Positions 5,684 to 64,000 of a stretch of 64,000 nucleotides of DNA are shown here, one piece after another (within the stretch, counting starts at the first letter, position 1; the number at the start of each line of letters is the position of its first letter). The stretch spans positions 1 to 64,000 of the forward strand of contig SCPB01000001.1 in NCBI GenBank assembly GCA_005502445.1. Reading direction: 5' to 3'. The DNA is from Microbacteriaceae bacterium X2B (GTDB lineage: Bacteria > Actinomycetota > Actinomycetes > Actinomycetales > Microbacteriaceae). The position numbers and the translations under genes are program-made. The notes beneath the pieces are model-generated. The model was not told the origin of the DNA and did not search any database. It saw only the letters and a list, made by a program, of their open reading frames with translations.

Positions 5684-6042
5684 GGGGTGAACGCCAGGTA
5701 CAGCGCTCCGGCGGCGATCACGAGCAGCAGGAGCCACAGCCAGCCGAGGCCGACGGCGACCCAGGCGAGGGCGAGGCCGCGCTCGCCGCCGCGCGCGCGC
5801 CGGATCTGCCCGACCGCGAGGTGCCCGAACAGTGCGGCGAGGGGGCTCAGCATGAGCCCGAGCACGAGCGACAGCACGGCGAGGGCGTTGCGGCGCGGGT
5901 GCTCGGCCGCGCCGGGGTCGGGGTCCGGCGGCAGAGCCGCCGCATCCGCCTCGATGCGCCGCGGGAGCACGGGGACCTCCGCCCACACGGGCGTCTCGGG
6001 CGATGGCGACGTCGTCGACTGCTCGCCCGGCCGGTCGGTCAT
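5680..6042 (-). CDS. DUF4190-type small membrane protein
   Basis: A 120-residue protein with an acidic, Pro-rich cytoplasmic N-terminus of about 50 residues followed by two transmembrane helices. The segment NALAVLSLVLGLMLSPLA, then a short FGHLAVGQIRRARGGERG linker, then a second helix, is the DUF4190 pattern. Function is unknown. It is the first gene of a two-gene unit with the coupled membrane protein downstream and is divergent from the GDPD gene; only 31 bp separate the two starts. Confidence 0.78.
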   Translation of the reverse strand: MTDRPGEQSTTSPSPETPVWAEVPVLPRRIEADAAALPPDPDPGAAEHPRRNALAVLSLVLGLMLSPLAALFGHLAVGQIRRARGGERGLALAWVAVGLGWLWLLLLVIAAGALYLAFTP

Positions 6043-6073: not shown

Positions 6074-7075
6074 GTGATCGAGCCCACGCGCGAGCGCCCG
6101 CTCATCGTGGCCCACCGGGGAGCGAGCGGGTACCGTCCCGAGCACACGCGGGCCGCATACGAGCTCGCGATCGCCCTCGGCGCCGAGGCGGTCGAGCCCG
6201 ACATCGTCGCCACGCGCGACGGGCAGCTCGTGCTGCGCCACGAGAACGAGATCAGCGGAACGACCGACGTCGCCGACCGCCCCGAGTTCGCGCATCGCCG
6301 CACGACGAAGACGATCGACGGCGAGCGGCTGACGGGCTGGTTCACCGAGGACTTCACCTGGGCGGAGTTGTCGACGCTGCGCGCGCGAGAACGGCTGCCG
6401 GCGGTGCGGCAGGCGTCGACGCGCTTCGACGGGCGGTACCCGATCCTGCGGCTGCGCGACCTCATGGCGATCCTGGATGCGGCGCCCCGCCCCGTGGGCA
6501 TGGTCGCCGAGATCAAGCACGCGACGCACTTCGCGGCCATCGGTCTTCCGCTCGACGAGCTCTTCGCCGCCGAGGTCGCGGGCTGGCAGCCGGCCGCCCC
6601 CCTCGTCGTCGAGGCCTTCGAGCAGTCGGTGCTCGCCGACGTCCGCGATCGCGGGGTCGAGGCGCGGTACATGTTCCTGCTCGAGAAGAGCGGGTCGCCT
6701 GCCGACCTCGTCGAGCGGTTCGGCGCCGCGGCGCTCTCGTACGCCGGGCATTTGACGGATGCGGGGCTCGCGCGCCTTGCCGGTTCGGTCGAGGGCATCA
6801 GCGTCGATACCGCGCTCGTCGCGAAGCCCGAATCGCGCGGAGGCCCGGTCGTGACGAGCGATCTCGTCGCGCGGGCCCACGTCGCCGGGCTCGACGTGTT
6901 CACCTGGACCCTGCGGCCCGAGAACCGCTTCCTGCCCGGCTCTCTGCGCGTGGGAGCGGGCGCCGCCTCGCACGGCGACTGGCTGACCTGGTTCCAGACG
7001 CTCATGCGCGCGGGGGTCGACGGCGTGTTCGCCGACCACCCCGACCTGGCGCTCGAGGCGCGCGCGGGCCTGTAG
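6074..7075 (+). CDS. Glycerophosphodiester phosphodiesterase family protein
   Basis: A 333-residue GDPD-domain TIM barrel. The catalytic N-terminal signature VAHRGASGYRPEHT and the metal-binding EPDIVATRDGQLVLRHE are present. The long insertion after the first strands and the C-terminal VFTWTLRPENRFLP and DGVFADHPD match the GlpQ-like branch, which cleaves glycerophosphodiesters to glycerol-3-phosphate and an alcohol. No signal peptide is visible, so it is probably cytoplasmic. A TAGGGT -10 sits 7 nt before the GTG, so translation is probably leaderless. Confidence 0.9.
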   Translation: MIEPTRERPLIVAHRGASGYRPEHTRAAYELAIALGAEAVEPDIVATRDGQLVLRHENEISGTTDVADRPEFAHRRTTKTIDGERLTGWFTEDFTWAELSTLRARERLPAVRQASTRFDGRYPILRLRDLMAILDAAPRPVGMVAEIKHATHFAAIGLPLDELFAAEVAGWQPAAPLVVEAFEQSVLADVRDRGVEARYMFLLEKSGSPADLVERFGAAALSYAGHLTDAGLARLAGSVEGISVDTALVAKPESRGGPVVTSDLVARAHVAGLDVFTWTLRPENRFLPGSLRVGAGAASHGDWLTWFQTLMRAGVDGVFADHPDLALEARAGL

Positions 7076-12350: not shown

Positions 12351-12423
12351 CCGCCGGGCGCGTCGAGGGCGCCGCCCCTCGATCGCGCCCCGGCCCCGTG
12401 TCACCGGCGCGCCCCCAGCGGAG

Positions 12424-12476
12424 TACCCTGGTCGAGGCCGTGTCTCTCGACATCGAGAGATCTCTCGACGTCGAAC
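12424..12476 (+). promoter_or_regulatory. sucC promoter with tandem palindromic operator
   Basis: A TACCCT -10 candidate lies at 12424-12429. Just downstream is the perfect palindrome TCTCTCGACATCGAGAGA (12443-12460), followed directly by a second, degenerate copy beginning TCTCTCGACGTCGA (12461-12474). The position, at or after the expected transcription start, suits a repressor. The core TCTCGACATCGAGA recurs upstream of icd, so the two TCA-cycle units may share a regulator, which I cannot name. Confidence 0.65.
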
Positions 12477-12544
12477 CACCTCGAGACCGAGAACCGCCGG
12501 CCGGTTCCTACGTACATCGCACGCGGAATGGGAAGAGCTAGAGC

Positions 12545-13708
12545 GTGGATCTTTTCGAGTACCAAGCACGGGACATGTTCGAGAAGCACGGCGTTCCCGT
12601 GCTGGCGGGCATCGTCGCCGACGCCCCTGAGGAGGCGCGCGTCGCGGCTGAGAAGCTCGGCGGCGTCACGGTCGTCAAGGCCCAGGTCAAGACCGGAGGC
12701 CGCGGCAAGGCCGGCGGCGTCAAGGTCGCGAAGACCCCCGACGAGGCGGAGGCCGCCGCGCAGGCGATCCTCGGCCTCGACATCAAGGGCCACGTCGTCA
12801 AGCGCGTCATGGTCGCGGCCGGAGCGGACATCAAGGAGGAGTTCTACTTCTCCGTCCTGCTCGACCGCGCCAACCGCAGCTACCTCGCCCTCTGCAGCTA
12901 CGAGGGCGGCATGGAGATCGAGCAGCTCGCCGAGGAGCGCCCCGAGGCGCTCGCCCGCGTCGAGGTCGACCCGGGCCGCGGAATCGACCTGGAGAAGGCG
13001 CGCGAGATCGCCGTCGAGGCGAAGTTCCCCGTCGAGCTCGTCGACAAGGTCGCGCCCGTCTTCGTGACGCTCTACGAGGTCTACGTGAAGGAGGACGCGA
13101 CGCTCGTCGAGGTCAACCCGCTCGTGCTCACCGGTGCCGGCGACATCGTCGCCCTCGACGGCAAGGTCTCGCTCGACGAGAACGCGTCGTTCCGCCAGGC
13201 CGAGCACGCGGCGCTCGAGGACAAGGACTCGACCGACCCGCTCGAGGCGAAGGCCAAGGAGCACGACCTCAACTACGTCAAGCTCGACGGCGAGGTCGGC
13301 ATCATCGGCAACGGCGCGGGCCTGGTCATGTCGACGCTCGACGTCGTGGCATACGCCGGCGAGAGGCACGGCGGCGTGAAGCCGGCCAACTTCCTCGACA
13401 TCGGCGGCGGCGCCTCGGCCGAGGTCATGGCAGCCGGTCTCGACGTCATCCTCGGCGACGCGCAGGTCAAGAGCGTGTTCGTCAACGTCTTCGGCGGCAT
13501 CACGGCGTGCGACGCCGTCGCCAACGGCATCGTGAAGGCCCTCGAGATCCTCGGCGACGCGGCGACCAAGCCGCTCGTCGTGCGACTCGACGGCAACAAC
13601 GTCGAGGAGGGCCGGCGCATCCTCGCCGAGGCGAACCACCCGCTCGTGACGATCGCGAGCTCCATGGACGAGGGCGCCGACAAGGCCGCCGAGTTGGCTG
13701 CGAAGTAA
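12545..13708 (+). CDS. sucC: Succinyl-CoA synthetase, beta subunit
   Basis: ADP-forming succinate-CoA ligase beta subunit of 387 residues. With SucD it interconverts succinyl-CoA and succinate with substrate-level phosphorylation in the TCA cycle. The ATP-grasp domain occupies the N-terminal 240 residues ([44 protein letters not shown]), and the CoA-ligase domain follows ([23 protein letters not shown]). The GTG start is preceded by GGGAAGAG. sucD begins 11 nt after the stop. Confidence 0.97.
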
Positions 13709-59481: not shown

Positions 59482-59626
59482 TGTCAGCAGCAAGACTGAC
59501 TTGCGCAGCACGAACTCGATTCCCCCCAATCGCGTGCTGCCGAGGCGGCGCCCATTCCCCCCAAGTTGGGCGCCGCCCCCCAGTTCAGCGAACGGCTCCT
59601 CCCCACGAGGAGCCGTTCGTCTTTTC
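59482..59626 (+). ncRNA. 6C RNA (actinobacterial sRNA)
   Basis: About 145 nt. Two stem-loops expose runs of six cytosines: stem CGATT/AATCG around CCCCCC (59522-59527), extended by GCAGCACG/CGTGCTGC, and stem GGCGGCGCCC/GGGCGCCGCC around TTCCCCCCAAGTT (C run 59557-59562). A Rho-independent terminator, CGAACGGCTCCT/AGGAGCCGTTCG (59589-59619) plus TCTTTTC, ends it. This is the defining structure of 6C RNA. In Mycobacterium tuberculosis the homologue (B11) lies at the ssd/Tad-like locus, and C-rich loops pair with G-rich ribosome sites of mRNAs; the location here, just before tadA and near acs, matches that synteny. Confidence 0.93.
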
Positions 59627-59665
59627 TCCGCACCGCGCGCGCTGTCCGGGGGAGGGCGCTCGGTC

Positions 59666-60781
59666 ATGCGGGATTCTCGCGGGATGCCCGCCGTCGCCGC
59701 CTTCGTTCCGATCGACCCGAGACGGCGAGGCGATGGCAGGGCGCCCGCCGTCGCCCGTGCGCTCCCGGCGGCATTCCGCGCGCTTCTCGGGCCGCTCGCG
59801 GCCGTCGTCGACGACCCCGCGGCGACGGACGTCTTCGTGACAGGCGACGGCTCGGTCTGGCGCGATGCCGGCGGCGGGGCCGAGCGCGTGCCGGATGCGC
59901 GACTCGACCCCGCCGCCGCCCGAGAACTCGCGGTGCGGGTCATCGAGCACGGCGGCCGGCACATCGACGAGGCCACGCCGTGCGCCGACGTGCGCATCGG
60001 CGACGGCGTCCGCGTGCATGCCGCGCTGCCGCCCATCGCGCGGGCGGGCGCGGAGCTGTCGATCCGGCTCCCGCGCACGATTCCGGTGACCCTGGAGTCC
60101 GCCGGGCTTCCCGATGCGATCGTCGTCGTGCTCCGCACGGCGCTCGAGGAACGGCGCACGCTCCTGGTGACGGGGGCGACGGGCAGCGGCAAGACGACCC
60201 TCCTCTCGGCCTGGCTCTCCGCCGCGCCCCCGACCGACCGCATCATCCTCATCGAGGATGTCGCCGAGGCGCGCATAGTCCACCCTCACGTCGTCGGGCT
60301 CGAGTGCCGCCAGGCCAATCTCGAGGGCGCCGGCGAGATCGACCTGGCCCGACTGGTGCGCGAAGCCCTGCGGATGCGCCCCGACCGGCTCGTGGTCGGA
60401 GAATGCCGCGGTGCGGAGGTCCGCGAGTTCCTCGCGGCGCTCAACACGGGCCACCGCGGAGGTGCCGGGACGCTGCACGCGAACTCCCTCGCGGACGTCC
60501 CGAGCCGGCTCGAGGCGGTCGGCATGATCGCCGGGCTCGACCCGCTCGCCCTCGCGCGACAGGCGCTGAGCGGCATCGACCTCATCGTGCACCTCCGCCG
60601 TGCGCCGGATGGCTCCCGCTCGGCTTCGCTCGGGCGATTCGCGCTCGACGCCCGCGAGCGGCTCACAGTGGTCGAGATCGACCCGCGCGTCGCGGTCGAC
60701 CCGACGCCGTGCCGCTCGGCACGATTCGACGGCACCCCATCGACCGACCGCGACGGAGGAGGGTCTGATGACCGCTCGTGA
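59666..60781 (+). CDS. Tad pilus/secretion ATPase (TadA/CpaF family)
   Basis: A 371-residue type II/IV secretion ATPase. N-terminal DPAATDVFVTGDGSVW region, Walker [17 protein letters not shown], Asp box IILIEDVAEARI, Walker B RPDRLVVGECRGAEVREFL and GHRGGAGTLHANS His box are in order. It should energise assembly of Flp-type pili with the T2SSF membrane protein downstream. GGGGGAGGG lies 9 nt before the ATG at 59666. The septum-site (ssd/TadZ-like) gene often preceding it is absent. It overlaps the next gene by 14 nt. Confidence 0.9.
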   Translation: MRDSRGMPAVAAFVPIDPRRRGDGRAPAVARALPAAFRALLGPLAAVVDDPAATDVFVTGDGSVWRDAGGGAERVPDARLDPAAARELAVRVIEHGGRHIDEATPCADVRIGDGVRVHAALPPIARAGAELSIRLPRTIPVTLESAGLPDAIVVVLRTALEERRTLLVTGATGSGKTTLLSAWLSAAPPTDRIILIEDVAEARIVHPHVVGLECRQANLEGAGEIDLARLVREALRMRPDRLVVGECRGAEVREFLAALNTGHRGGAGTLHANSLADVPSRLEAVGMIAGLDPLALARQALSGIDLIVHLRRAPDGSRSASLGRFALDARERLTVVEIDPRVAVDPTPCRSARFDGTPSTDRDGGGSDDRS

Positions 60782-61733
60782 CGACGACGAACTCTCGAGC
60801 CACGTGCACCGCGTCGCGGTGCTCATCGCTGCGGGCATCGCGCCGGTCTCGGCGTGGCGGCACGTCGCTGAGGCGGCCAGGCCGGCCGACCCGGTTCTCG
60901 ATGCGGTCGTCGAGCGCCTCGACGCCGGCGACCCCGTCGCGAGAGCGCTCACCGCCGTCGCGACGGAACGCGGTTCAGCCTGGCGCGCACTGTCCGCCGC
61001 ATGGGTCGTGGCGGCGGCGAGCGGCGCCCCGCTCGCTCCCGCCCTCGACGCGTTCGCCGTGGCTGTCCGCGACCGCGCTGCCGCGCAGCGCGACGTCGCC
61101 GTCGCGCTCGCGAGCCCGCGCGCGACGGCGCGGGTGGTGCTCGTCCTGCCGCTCGTCGCGGTGCTGCTCGCCCTGCTCATGGGCGTCGACCTCGCTGCCG
61201 CCGCAGCGCATCCTCTCGGCGCCGCGAGCATCATCATCGGCCTCGCGCTCGCCGTGCTCGCGCGGGTCTGGATGCGTCGACTGCTGCGGGCGGCCCAGCC
61301 GCCTCCGCCGACCGCGGGGCTCGACCTCGAGCTGCTCGCGGTCGCCGCCGCGGGCGGCGGCTCGCCCGAGTCGGCGCGCCGGCTCGTCGCGGAGACGATG
61401 AGGGCGGCCGGACTCGATGGCGGTCCATCGCGCGGCGGAGTCGAGCCGCGCAGATCGCGGGCGGACTCGCGCGCGGCGGGCGAGCCGCTCGACGCGCTCG
61501 AAGCCCTCGTCGTCCTATCGCGCCGGTCGGGTGCCCCGCTCGGCGCCCTCGCGCGTGCGGAGGCCGCCGACGAGAGGCTGCGCGCGCGCTCCGCCGCGCG
61601 CGAGGCGGCGGAGCGGCTGGGCGTTCGACTCATGCTCCCGCTCGGCGCCTGCGTGCTGCCGTCATTCATGCTGCTGGGCGTCGTGCCGATGATCGTCGGA
61701 ATCGTCTCCTCCACAGCCGCAGTCGCATCGTGA
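60768..61733 (+). CDS. Type II secretion F-domain Tad membrane protein
   Basis: A 321-residue protein with three to four transmembrane helices (VVLVLPLVAVLLALLMGV; AASIIIGLALAVLARV; C-terminal CVLPSFMLLGVVPMIVGIVS) and T2SSF-like cytoplasmic segments, as in TadB/TadC. Actinobacterial Tad loci usually have separate TadB-like and TadC-like genes; here one gene carries both an early (ELSSHVHRVAVLIAAGIAPV) and a late T2SSF-like segment. GGAGGAGGG precedes the ATG. Its last 50 codons are repeated at 63572-63723. Confidence 0.83.
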   Translation: MTARDDDELSSHVHRVAVLIAAGIAPVSAWRHVAEAARPADPVLDAVVERLDAGDPVARALTAVATERGSAWRALSAAWVVAAASGAPLAPALDAFAVAVRDRAAAQRDVAVALASPRATARVVLVLPLVAVLLALLMGVDLAAAAAHPLGAASIIIGLALAVLARVWMRRLLRAAQPPPPTAGLDLELLAVAAAGGGSPESARRLVAETMRAAGLDGGPSRGGVEPRRSRADSRAAGEPLDALEALVVLSRRSGAPLGALARAEAADERLRARSAAREAAERLGVRLMLPLGACVLPSFMLLGVVPMIVGIVSSTAAVAS

Positions 61734-61852
61734 TCGACCCCGAGCCTCGTCACGTCGGACCACGTACCGCGCGGCCCCGTGCACAATCGACCTGTTCGTG
61801 CCGCACACCGCCGCTCCTCGCCGAATGCGACGAGCGCTCGATCGATCGGAAG
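61582..61852 (+). repeat. 271-bp direct repeat, left copy
   Basis: Covers the last 152 nt of the T2SSF gene plus 119 nt of intergenic sequence. It recurs at 63572-63842, offset by 1990 bp, with a single mismatch (C at 61804, T at 63794). The match breaks abruptly at both ends. Confidence 0.95.
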
Positions 61853-61869
61853 TGTAAGGTCTTGGCACC

Positions 61870-62289
61870 CTAAAGCGCTTGCGAGCACTCGACAGGCCTC
61901 GCGGCGTGCCACTCCTTGTTCACGAGAACGAAACTCGACCCGGATGCAAGGTCGCAGGTCCATTCGCCTTCGCCGTCCACCAGTTCTATACGACTCGGAA
62001 GATTGATCCCGTCGGACGCAAGGAGTCGGGCCCAGTCAGCAGTGAGCTTCAGGGAGGTGGGAACGTCGTCGTGCGGGCCGCAGACGAGCACGTCGCTTCC
62101 GACAAGCGTCTGCGCTTTCGACAAGGGGAAATCAGGCACGTCGGCGGACTCTGGGCAGGACGCTGGGGAGGGCGTCGGCTCTGGGCCGGGAGTGCATCCG
62201 GACGCGAGAACGATCACGACGAGGGGCAGCAGTGTCCACGGCCGCCTCCGGTAGGTCACCCGACTGTAGCGCCCGTGCCGCCCGGCCAT
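61870..62289 (-). CDS. Small lipoprotein, function unknown
   Basis: A 139-residue protein with a basic N-terminus, hydrophobic core LLPLVVIVL and lipobox LASGC (Cys 32), then a Pro/Thr linker (TPGPEPTPSPAS) and a small domain with four cysteines that could form two disulfides (CPESA, VCGPHDD, WTCDLA, VECSQ). I do not recognise the domain. It overlaps the 3' end of the protease gene by 34 nt in another frame, so the two are co-transcribed. It may be a partner, immunity or anchoring protein for the protease (inference). Confidence 0.8.
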   Translation of the reverse strand: MAGRHGRYSRVTYRRRPWTLLPLVVIVLASGCTPGPEPTPSPASCPESADVPDFPLSKAQTLVGSDVLVCGPHDDVPTSLKLTADWARLLASDGINLPSRIELVDGEGEWTCDLASGSSFVLVNKEWHAARPVECSQAL

Positions 62290-63512
62290 GCTCGCACCCC
62301 GCTCAACTGTGTGCAGTAGTACCTGAGGGAAGGAGTGGAGAATCTGGCAGTGACAATACCTGCGACTGTCACTCCGCCAGCGCCGTCCGAGTAATAGCAC
62401 GTGCCGCCAGAGTCGCCCGGTTGAGCTCCGTTCCAGTCCGCACCGCTTCCGCCGGTGCTATCGTGTCGCATCTCCAGCATCTGACCCGTAACAATCCCGT
62501 CGACAGTGCGAGTACTGTAGGAGTTAGTGACGTAGTAGCGGCAGATCTGCCCGGTCGTCCTTCCTGATGTGCACACCGCTGAACCGTTCGGCCGTCCGCC
62601 CCACACGGCTCCGGAAATCGCCAGGCTCGTTGTTCCGTAGACGTCGCCGTTGAAGACGCGCATTCCATACGTTGATCCGTAAAGCAGCTTCCAATCACCG
62701 TAGATGTCTGCGTTTCCAGGGTAGGCGGTTGTGTATTGGTTGCCGACGAGGTTACCGGCGTTGGTGAAGCTGGTCGCAGTGCAGTGCCCAGCGGTGAGCA
62801 GTCGATGCACTCCCGCGAATGTGATTCGAACACCAGACGAGCAATAGCCGCTGGCAGATACGAGTTCGCCACCCATCCAGTACGGTGCAGTGTCGGCCTT
62901 CCTTGTTACAAGGGTTTCACCCTCTCCACCGGGATCAGTGACAATCTGAACCGCGGAATACTCGGTGCGGTCGAGCTCTCGCTGCACGCGAGCGGCAACC
63001 TCACCCTGATCGCTCCCAGGTCGGACCTCAATGAGCAGCGCGCCGGAGTAGATGTCGGGGGCGAACCCCATCACGGCGTCTGAGAGGTCACGTTCCATGA
63101 CGCTCTGTCCCGCAGAGATTAGAGTATCGAGGCTCGCGGGGACTTCGTAGGCGATTACCGGGTACGGTTTCCCAGCGGCGATTCCGTCGATTCGTTCGGC
63201 CAATGCTCCGGCGGTCGGCGTCATGAAGACGGCGACGCCATCGAACCCAGAGCAGAACGCCACGCCCGTCGCAACGTCGGTGTGCTCGTCGACGAGAGCT
63301 TGGACTTCGTTGGCGAGAAGGTCAAGCTCCGCGCTCGCTTGCCCATCCCAGACCTGTTCACCGTTCTCGTCAAACCGAAGACAAGAATCAGGACTTGTTC
63401 CTTCCTCCGTGTGCACGTCGACCGTCGACGCGTGCTGCGCCATAGCGGGTGCGGAGACTATAGCCAACCCCGCTGCGATCATTGCCCCTAGAATCATTAC
63501 GATTCGCCGCAC
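62256..63512 (-). CDS. Secreted chymotrypsin-like (S1 family) serine protease
   Basis: A 418-residue exported protease. The signal peptide (residues 1-25, AAGLAIVSAPAMA) is followed by a propeptide of about 180 residues (ending near TLVTRKADTAPYWMGGE) and a mature S1 domain with the triad His 243 (LLTAGHC), Asp 269 or 273 (NADIYGDWKLL) and Ser 368 (PGDSGGTC). Six or so cysteines suggest three disulfides, as in streptogrisin/alpha-lytic enzymes. The GTG has an ideal AGGAGGT ribosome site 5 nt upstream; a longer frame into the repeat is spurious. It is the leading gene of the inserted cassette, with a promoter at the right junction. Confidence 0.92.
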   Translation of the reverse strand: MRRIVMILGAMIAAGLAIVSAPAMAQHASTVDVHTEEGTSPDSCLRFDENGEQVWDGQASAELDLLANEVQALVDEHTDVATGVAFCSGFDGVAVFMTPTAGALAERIDGIAAGKPYPVIAYEVPASLDTLISAGQSVMERDLSDAVMGFAPDIYSGALLIEVRPGSDQGEVAARVQRELDRTEYSAVQIVTDPGGEGETLVTRKADTAPYWMGGELVSASGYCSSGVRITFAGVHRLLTAGHCTATSFTNAGNLVGNQYTTAYPGNADIYGDWKLLYGSTYGMRVFNGDVYGTTSLAISGAVWGGRPNGSAVCTSGRTTGQICRYYVTNSYSTRTVDGIVTGQMLEMRHDSTGGSGADWNGAQPGDSGGTCYYSDGAGGVTVAGIVTARFSTPSLRYYCTQLSGVRAWPGGTGATVG

Positions 63513-63539
63513 GGTGACCTCCTCGCCGATCGGCTGCAT

Positions 63540-63545
63540 ATTATC
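63540..63545 (-). promoter_or_regulatory. -10 element of the inserted protease gene at the cassette junction
   Basis: On the minus strand GATAAT, within TGATAATAT, lies about 28 nt before the GTG and about 26 nt inside the cassette's right end. A matching -35 would fall at the edge of the repeat (TCTTTC, 17-bp spacing). The cassette therefore appears to carry its own AT-rich promoter. Confidence 0.5.
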
Positions 63546-63571
63546 AGCTGCCAAATCGCGGCGAAAGAGCT

Positions 63572-63723
63572 GCGCGCGCTCCGCCGCGCGCGAGGCGGCG
63601 GAGCGGCTGGGCGTTCGACTCATGCTCCCGCTCGGCGCCTGCGTGCTGCCGTCATTCATGCTGCTGGGCGTCGTGCCGATGATCGTCGGAATCGTCTCCT
63701 CCACAGCCGCAGTCGCATCGTGA
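63572..63723 (+). pseudogene. 3' fragment of the T2SSF Tad gene (duplicate)
   Basis: The last 50 codons of the T2SSF gene, identical to 61582-61733 in the coding part and ending at the same TGA (63721-63723). It lacks the first 270 residues and a start, so it is a remnant produced by the duplication. Confidence 0.92.
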
Positions 63724-63842
63724 TCGACCCCGAGCCTCGTCACGTCGGACCACGTACCGCGCGGCCCCGTGCACAATCGACCTGTTCGTGCCGTACACCG
63801 CCGCTCCTCGCCGAATGCGACGAGCGCTCGATCGATCGGAAG
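63572..63842 (+). repeat. 271-bp direct repeat, right copy
   Basis: One-mismatch copy of 61582-61852. Its last 119 nt supply the natural upstream region of the pilin-like gene, including the GGAAGA before the ATG at 63847, so the pilin's local context is intact while its distance from the tad promoter is increased by 1990 bp. Confidence 0.95.
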
Positions 63843-63846
63843 ACCC

Positions 63847-64000
63847 ATGGCTCGAACTCTCTCCTCCCTCATGCGCTCGTGGCGCTCGCGGTCGGTGCTC
63901 GCCGACGACACCGGTGCGGCGACCGCCGAATACGCGATCGCGACGATGGCCGCGGTCGGGTTCGCGAGCCTGCTCGTCGTCATCATGCGCAGTGACGAGG
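63847..64000 (+). CDS. DUF4244/Flp pilin-like protein (cut by the window end)
   Basis: The first 51 codons of a small pilin-like protein: a basic leader (MARTLSSLMRSWRSRSVLAD) followed by DTGAATAEYAIATMAAVGF and the hydrophobic helix FASLLVVIM. GAATAEYA resembles the type IV/Flp pilin processing region with conserved Glu-Tyr, as in DUF4244 proteins encoded next to tad genes. It is the probable substrate of the TadA/T2SSF machinery. The gene continues past base 64000. Confidence 0.85.
   Translation, partial: MARTLSSLMRSWRSRSVLADDTGAATAEYAIATMAAVGFASLLVVIMRSDE

Follow-up and report, generated by a model that had tools for sequence, protein, structure and literature searches.

Introduction

Microbacteriaceae bacterium X2B (assembly GCA_005502445.1) has a draft genome of 2,568,651 bases in 113 contigs, one of which, the 198-kb contig SCPB01000001.1 (C19), begins with the 64,000 nucleotides that were analysed here and are referred to as the window. 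Towards the end of the window, within the genes for a Tad pilus, a cassette with genes for a predicted secreted protease (P0001) and a predicted lipoprotein (P0002) lies between two direct repeats, each of which holds the end of a host pilus gene together with the spacer behind it. The features of the locus, with their positions in the window, are as follows.

59501–60781, plus strand: host gene for a TadA-like T2SSE ATPase (Pfam T2SSE, 1.3e-40; TTG start as listed)
60768–61733, plus strand: host T2SSF (TadB/C-like) gene, intact (Pfam T2SSF, 3.4e-16; ATG at 60768, stop at 61733)
61582–61852, unstranded: direct repeat copy 1, comprising the last 152 nt of the T2SSF gene (61582–61733) and 119 nt of spacer (61734–61852)
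61853–63571, unstranded: inserted cassette, 1719 bp, 61.4% guanine plus cytosine (GC), placed by the repeat boundaries and a GC count
61870–62289, minus strand: predicted lipoprotein P0002, 139 residues, with a lipobox LASGC recognised by eye
62256–63512, minus strand: predicted secreted S1E-like protease P0001, with a signal peptide recognised by eye, a pro-domain, and a catalytic domain bearing TAGHC and GDSGG
63513–63571, minus strand: protease leader of 59 nt, inside the insert, with a GATAAT box resembling a -10 element, recognised by eye
63572–63842, unstranded: direct repeat copy 2, with T at 63794, which restores the native spacer 5' of the pilin gene
63847–64000 and on to contig position 64053, plus strand: Flp/pilin-like gene (Pfam DUF4244, 4.2e-20)

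The Duplicated Stretch of Recipient DNA

An earlier note on this DNA had reported that the end of the T2SSF gene and the spacer next to it occur twice, 1990 bp apart, with one mismatch. The repeat finder returns the same picture, namely two copies of 271 nt at a spacing of 1990 and with 99.6% identity, which differ only by C at 61804 versus T at 63794, and the coordinates of the open reading frames (ORFs) agree with the division into 152 and 119 nt. At the left edge each copy begins within a (GC)n run, the two runs differing by 2 nt, and the similarity reaches a few bases further. Copy 1 completes the T2SSF gene and copy 2 runs on into the pilin-like gene, and because the insert thus has a complete copy of the duplicated DNA at either end, both Tad genes are whole, the pilin retaining its entire upstream spacer of 123 nt, just as the earlier note had it. 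The cassette is oriented against the Tad genes and interposes 1990 bp between the T2SSF and pilin-like genes; pilin expression may possibly be altered by it. The ORF downstream of the pilin-like gene matches TadE with 19.1 bits, under the Pfam cut-off of 22.9, and this match, taken with the T2SSE gene upstream, identifies the locus as a tad cluster.

When the own genome was searched with the insert, a single match was found, and a search with the repeat gave two strong matches, which are the copies themselves, and five weak ones, of which the three listed show 69–76% identity over 73–95 bp with expectation values (E) of 2e-5 or worse. A survey of close direct repeats (at least 60 bp, at least 85% identity, spacing below 20 kb, each piece searched within itself) covered 46 pieces with 1,025,952 bases (23,556 of them N), some 60% of the genome lying outside this sample; it yielded four pairs, among which the 271-bp pair ranks top by identity, the other three being a 61-bp pair (95.1%), a 117-bp pair (91.5%) and a 361-bp pair (85.6%). 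Close direct repeats of this genome other than the 271-bp pair lie at L140:4072-4188 with 5729-5843 (91%) and at L142:3610-3957 with 12392-12752 (86%). The propensity of the DNA to form hairpins at the repeat ends is nothing special (z −1.4, 0.4 and 1.0).

Composition of the Insert

Nearly all of the insert is one operon on the minus strand, with only 17 nt at its left end and 59 nt at its right end outside the two ORFs. None of the 623 windows of 1719 bp taken from the 64 kb has a GC content as low (mean 71.5%, standard deviation 2.9), and the GC content at third codon positions (GC3) is 0.66 for the protease and 0.76 for the lipoprotein as against 0.86–0.95 for five native genes, which bears out the earlier description of a cassette of lower GC. 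A deeper island of low GC (down to 53%) is located on the same contig at about 113.8–120 kb, outside the window. The absence of a transposase or integrase is likewise supported within the scope searched: a Pfam scan of the two ORFs that fill the insert returned no family, hence no transposase among them, and the tyrosine integrase family (PF00589) has no match on contig C19 and five matches elsewhere in the genome, serine integrases not having been searched. No pair of inverted repeats of at least 20 nt was found at the ends of the insert. In a consensus scan for promoters no sigma-70-like promoter passed, and terminator-like sites are as frequent as chance would have it, with one found versus 1.1 expected.

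The Insert Is a Gain

The repeat was compared across 60 genomes, including the own genome (G000) and 25 congeners. In 24 of the 25 congeners the T2SSF gene was matched, at 69–78% identity, the remaining one (G025, 71% complete) giving a short unrelated match only. The distance from the end of T2SSF to the pilin is 108–299 nt in each of the 24 matched congeners (by tblastn); in the own genome a distance of 196 nt separates the pilin motif from the stop in copy 2, and 2186 nt separate it from the stop of T2SSF. The congener matches stop short of the T2SSF stop codon in 23 of 24 cases, and only in G009 does the match extend 84 nt into the spacer (73%). The protease is absent from the 25 congeners bar one weak partial match in G013 (E 6.6e-4). 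The empty site that the earlier note had proposed to look for is thus found throughout the matched congeners, and because all 24 of them have no room for the insert, the insert is a lineage-specific gain of a foreign module.

Among five genomes of other genera that were read at this site, the T2SSF-pilin gap measures 122–194 nt in four and 1026 nt in the fifth (G026, from another genus of the family). The gap of G026 (L047:748-1469) contains a different two-gene unit, made up of two plus-strand ORFs of 65 and 175 residues which presumably resemble a HicA/HicB-type toxin-antitoxin, and no direct repeat of at least 20 bp surrounds it. Since a different unit has settled there, the T2SSF-pilin gap seems to tolerate insertions.

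The Protease and the Lipoprotein

The earlier note had described an exported S1 protease and an overlapping lipoprotein gene on the opposite strand. The two proteins and the overlap, which amounts to 34 nt, are upheld; the strand is not, in that both genes lie on the same strand, opposite to that of the Tad genes. The likely start of P0001 is the GTG after GAGGAGGT, as judged by eye, with an ATG at 63539 as the alternative. Both the His and the Ser motif of the chymotrypsin fold (TAGHC and GDSGG) occur in P0001 as well as in its homologues from Knoellia sinensis and from the locus L025 of a metagenome-assembled genome (MAG), and in Acidipropionibacterium thoenii they are found on two separate pieces of the protease. 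A profile of P0001 and its relatives, compared with solved chains, recovers the Glu-specific protease 1hpg (2.2e-5), alpha-lytic protease (1.5e-4) and SGPA (0.015). Like the alpha-lytic protease and streptogrisin group (S1E), P0001 has TAGHC, GDSGG, a putative signal peptide and an N-terminal pro-region, in addition to the profile similarity, but it differs in falling outside the Pfam and NCBIfam models and in that related pro-domains also occur alone. By these sequence features, P0001 is an S1E-like (alpha-lytic/streptogrisin-type) protease.

Neither P0001 nor P0002 matches a family in Pfam, NCBIfam, PHROGs or PADLOC, and the pro-domain of P0001, too, matched no named family; the K. sinensis homologue scores 19.5 bits against Rv1815_serprot, for which the cut-off is 175. 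A profile of P0002 found nothing notable in the PDB (best E 0.41). Weak matches to P0002 are present in the genomes G113, G138 and G165 (E 3e-5 to 2e-4).

Relatives of the Pair

In a scan of a collection of bacterial and archaeal genomes, three loci out of 50 pattern matches, belonging to A. thoenii, K. sinensis and a Bifidobacteriaceae MAG (G057), have a lipoprotein gene downstream of the protease on the same strand. Altogether the ordered pair was found in K. sinensis (L024), in A. thoenii (L023) and in two actinobacterial MAGs, at the loci L025 and L051 (both G057) and L052 (G162). The genes overlap, by their predicted starts, by 34 nt in the own genome, 20 nt in K. sinensis and 8 nt in L025. 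Both genes are open in the own genome and in K. sinensis, and in L025, where the contig ends within the protease, the catalytic part of the protease and the lipoprotein are open. In A. thoenii two tandem lipoprotein genes, both open and 78% identical (L023:9231-10244), follow a protease that is split over two frames, and the two pieces of this one gene are the only protease matches of a profile search there. At L051 the pro-domain and the lipoprotein are open, and TAGH and GDSG are absent from the three forward frames; at L052 the protease is interrupted, with the two catalytic motifs in different frames, and the lipoprotein is open. A damaged protease with an open lipoprotein is therefore seen in three of the six pairs (L023, L051 and L052), and the reverse in none of the six.

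Beyond these loci, relatives become rare and partial. Profile matches to the protease occur in 6 of 396 genomes of the phylum and in 12 of 398 of the family (the own genome being counted in both), scans in which up to four candidates per genome were scored and misses are possible; only the match in the own genome is full-length. The lipoprotein is present in 2 of 18 genomes of the family of G057. The distant protease matches consist mostly of the catalytic domain, in open frames of some 340–500 residues in other genera, and because no lipoprotein partner could be recognised within about 1.5 kb of these proteases, the pairing holds only for close relatives. No relatives of the protease were found in viral contigs (pattern scan) or in plasmids and phages (threshold E 1e-5). 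On this sequence evidence the pair is sparse and is named by none of the four family libraries searched; the best-ranked papers of a literature search contain nothing on it, which does not prove its absence from print.

The pro-domain also occurs alone in two genomes of the same family, G776 and G676 (L098:1378-2043 and L099:1345-2040), as a protein of 222 or 232 residues that lacks a catalytic domain and has a lipobox recognised by eye. In G057, genes for similar pro-domains are cut at the starts of the contigs C37 (L020) and C36 (L022). The cut genes at these starts and at the end of L025 look as if several protease copies had collapsed in this MAG.

A Second Gain without Repeats

In K. sinensis the pair sits between two conserved flank genes, which we take to be glnD and ffh. 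The distance between the flank matches is 1, 6, 8, 36, 127, 182, 574 and 906 bp in the eight other genomes of the genus, and elsewhere in these eight genomes the pair was sought as DNA only. The two larger gaps (906 bp in L071 and 574 bp in L072) contain unrelated DNA (best E 0.16), and the glnD-ffh gap may be a permissive insertion site in its own right. K. sinensis is a second precise gain of the pair, and one without repeats: no direct repeat of at least 24 bp was detected around the pair in the examined stretch of K. sinensis or of L025, and the examined edges of the K. sinensis insert share no 7-mer. The 300-nt direct repeat at the A. thoenii locus is its two lipoprotein genes; at L052 there are three direct repeats, none around the pair; and at L051 one 64-nt repeat of 86% identity (390-453 and 6296-6359) brackets the pair plus about 4.5 kb of other genes. 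Twice, then, the pair has entered between conserved genes, a duplication accompanying one of the two entries and not the other, and in neither is a mobile-element gene visible.

Proposed Function of the Pair

After export the protease would mature by loss of its pro-domain and act outside the cell, and the lipoprotein, probably translationally coupled to it, would stay on the membrane and may shield the producer. Most likely, as judged from the pairing, the overlap and the open lipoprotein genes accompanying damaged proteases, the lipoprotein would protect the producer as a membrane-anchored inhibitor. It is possible, although we lean against it, that the lipoprotein is instead a helper of the protease, such as a foldase or an export or maturation factor, a difference that concerns function and not origin. 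Pairing and overlap would suit any partner role; A. thoenii, however, keeps its lipoprotein open twice over, beside a single protease gene left in two pieces in different frames. Because the lipoprotein is open where the protease is damaged, a protective partner fits better than a helper, small as the numbers are.

There are known systems of similar layout. In SpeB-Spi, staphopain-staphostatin and Bfp-Bfi of Bacteroides fragilis, as in the present case, the gene of a secreted protease adjoins a small partner gene; those proteases are cysteine proteases, whereas the present one is a predicted serine protease whose inhibition is putative and which is accompanied by no mobile-element gene. B. fragilis Bfi1B and Bfi4 have predicted lipoprotein signals, large genomic insertions are associated with two of the bfp protease genes, and Spi is described as a propeptide analogue (PMC2873492). 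Since Spi is such an analogue, the stand-alone pro-domain lipoproteins would fit the idea of shielding.

How the Insert Arrived

The reading which we favour, at roughly even confidence, is that a foreign two-gene operon was captured in one event that needed no recombinase and duplicated 271 bp of recipient DNA. In the simplest course that remains, foreign DNA would have been joined to recipient DNA with 271 bp being re-copied, so that the product of this single event would read host, repeat, insert, repeat, host. The join would have been independent of homology, either by a template switch or by illegitimate joining of the incoming DNA to a re-copied recipient end, and selection for an intact pilus may have favoured the product with two copies. 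Foreign DNA is reportedly also captured by homology-facilitated illegitimate recombination, in one instance with insertion-deletions. The present locus shows instead a duplication of 271 bp that leaves both neighbours intact. Duplication of recipient DNA, the feature that the locus has in common with such cases, is a reported product of transformation (PMC3784515). ComEC is present in the genome, and in Micrococcus luteus tad genes are required for transformation and orthologs of comEA and comEC are present (PMC4322843).

Several points weigh against this reading. The genome is a draft in many contigs, and the compared genomes include no conspecific. Among 27 protease or pro-domain loci a clear lipoprotein partner was found only at L016 and L021, both in G057, and the partner test at L099 gave one 46-residue match (E 0.004). 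Compared pairwise with P0002, the lipoproteins of K. sinensis and A. thoenii are weak matches (E 0.08 and 0.29), and their kinship with it follows from gene position and from links via the MAG proteins. The damage at L023 and L052 is possibly sequencing error, L051 alone being plainly without the catalytic motifs.

Capture by end joining was also considered; it loses weight because the draft genome yielded no Ku, in a search that matched only B. subtilis among 14 controls.

Campbell-type integration through RecA, which the earlier note had put forward, is the strongest of the other explanations, albeit an unlikely one. A circle of 1990 bp, consisting of the insert and one repeat, or else DNA transferred from a conspecific that already carried the insert, would have been integrated by homology. 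The structure is what a single crossover leaves, and ComEC and the position within tad genes speak for this route no less. The molecule must, however, carry 271 bp identical to this species, which presupposes an earlier join of insert and repeat, and a replication gene would not fit into the insert, nor did any plasmid or phage record match the protease at E 1e-5. Because the congeners reach only 69–78% identity, and all but one of their 24 matches break off ahead of the stop codon, a conspecific donor is needed.

The other mechanism of the earlier note, a tandem duplication of 271 bp followed by insertion between the copies, is improbable. Short tandem duplications are common and the copies are nearly identical, but the insert lies precisely where the two copies meet, and a random insertion would have split one of them. 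The gain of a protease module between repeats that the note had recognised is thus sustained by the 24 congeners without room, the low GC and GC3, and the sparse relatives, and it is the two mechanisms attached to it that are less well supported.

A shade less probable still is site-specific integration into the 3' end of the T2SSF gene by a recombinase acting in trans, with the repeats as long attachment sites. Many integrase elements likewise include the 3' end of a gene and keep that gene whole, as the repeat does in this case; the genome has its five tyrosine-integrase matches, and the other two-gene unit in the same gap of G026 means that the gap may be a preferred site. None of the five matches is on this contig, however, and the K. 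sinensis gain has another target and no repeat of at least 24 bp, the G026 unit likewise having no flanking direct repeat of at least 20 bp. An assembly artefact, as a 113-contig draft might allow, is very improbable, given that both flanks lie inside a 198-kb contig, that the mismatch marks the copies as distinct and that the two intact genes form a recurring pair.

Implications

The capture of the operon, as we favour it, leaves an exceptionally clean scar of a gain made without a transposase, in which duplicated recipient DNA marks both joins. It also brings out a sparse actinobacterial pair of protease and lipoprotein for which the inhibitor hypothesis is directly testable. A more speculative extension, which we hold to be distinctly doubtful, is that the pair is a mobile protease-immunity cassette that moves without a recombinase: RecA would pop out a 1990-bp circle via the repeats, the circle would re-enter conspecifics by transformation through the Tad pilus and ComEC, and the lipoprotein and the stand-alone lipobox pro-domain proteins of related genera would confer immunity to a secreted protease that bacteria use on one another. 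If this were true, the scar itself would make the operon mobile.

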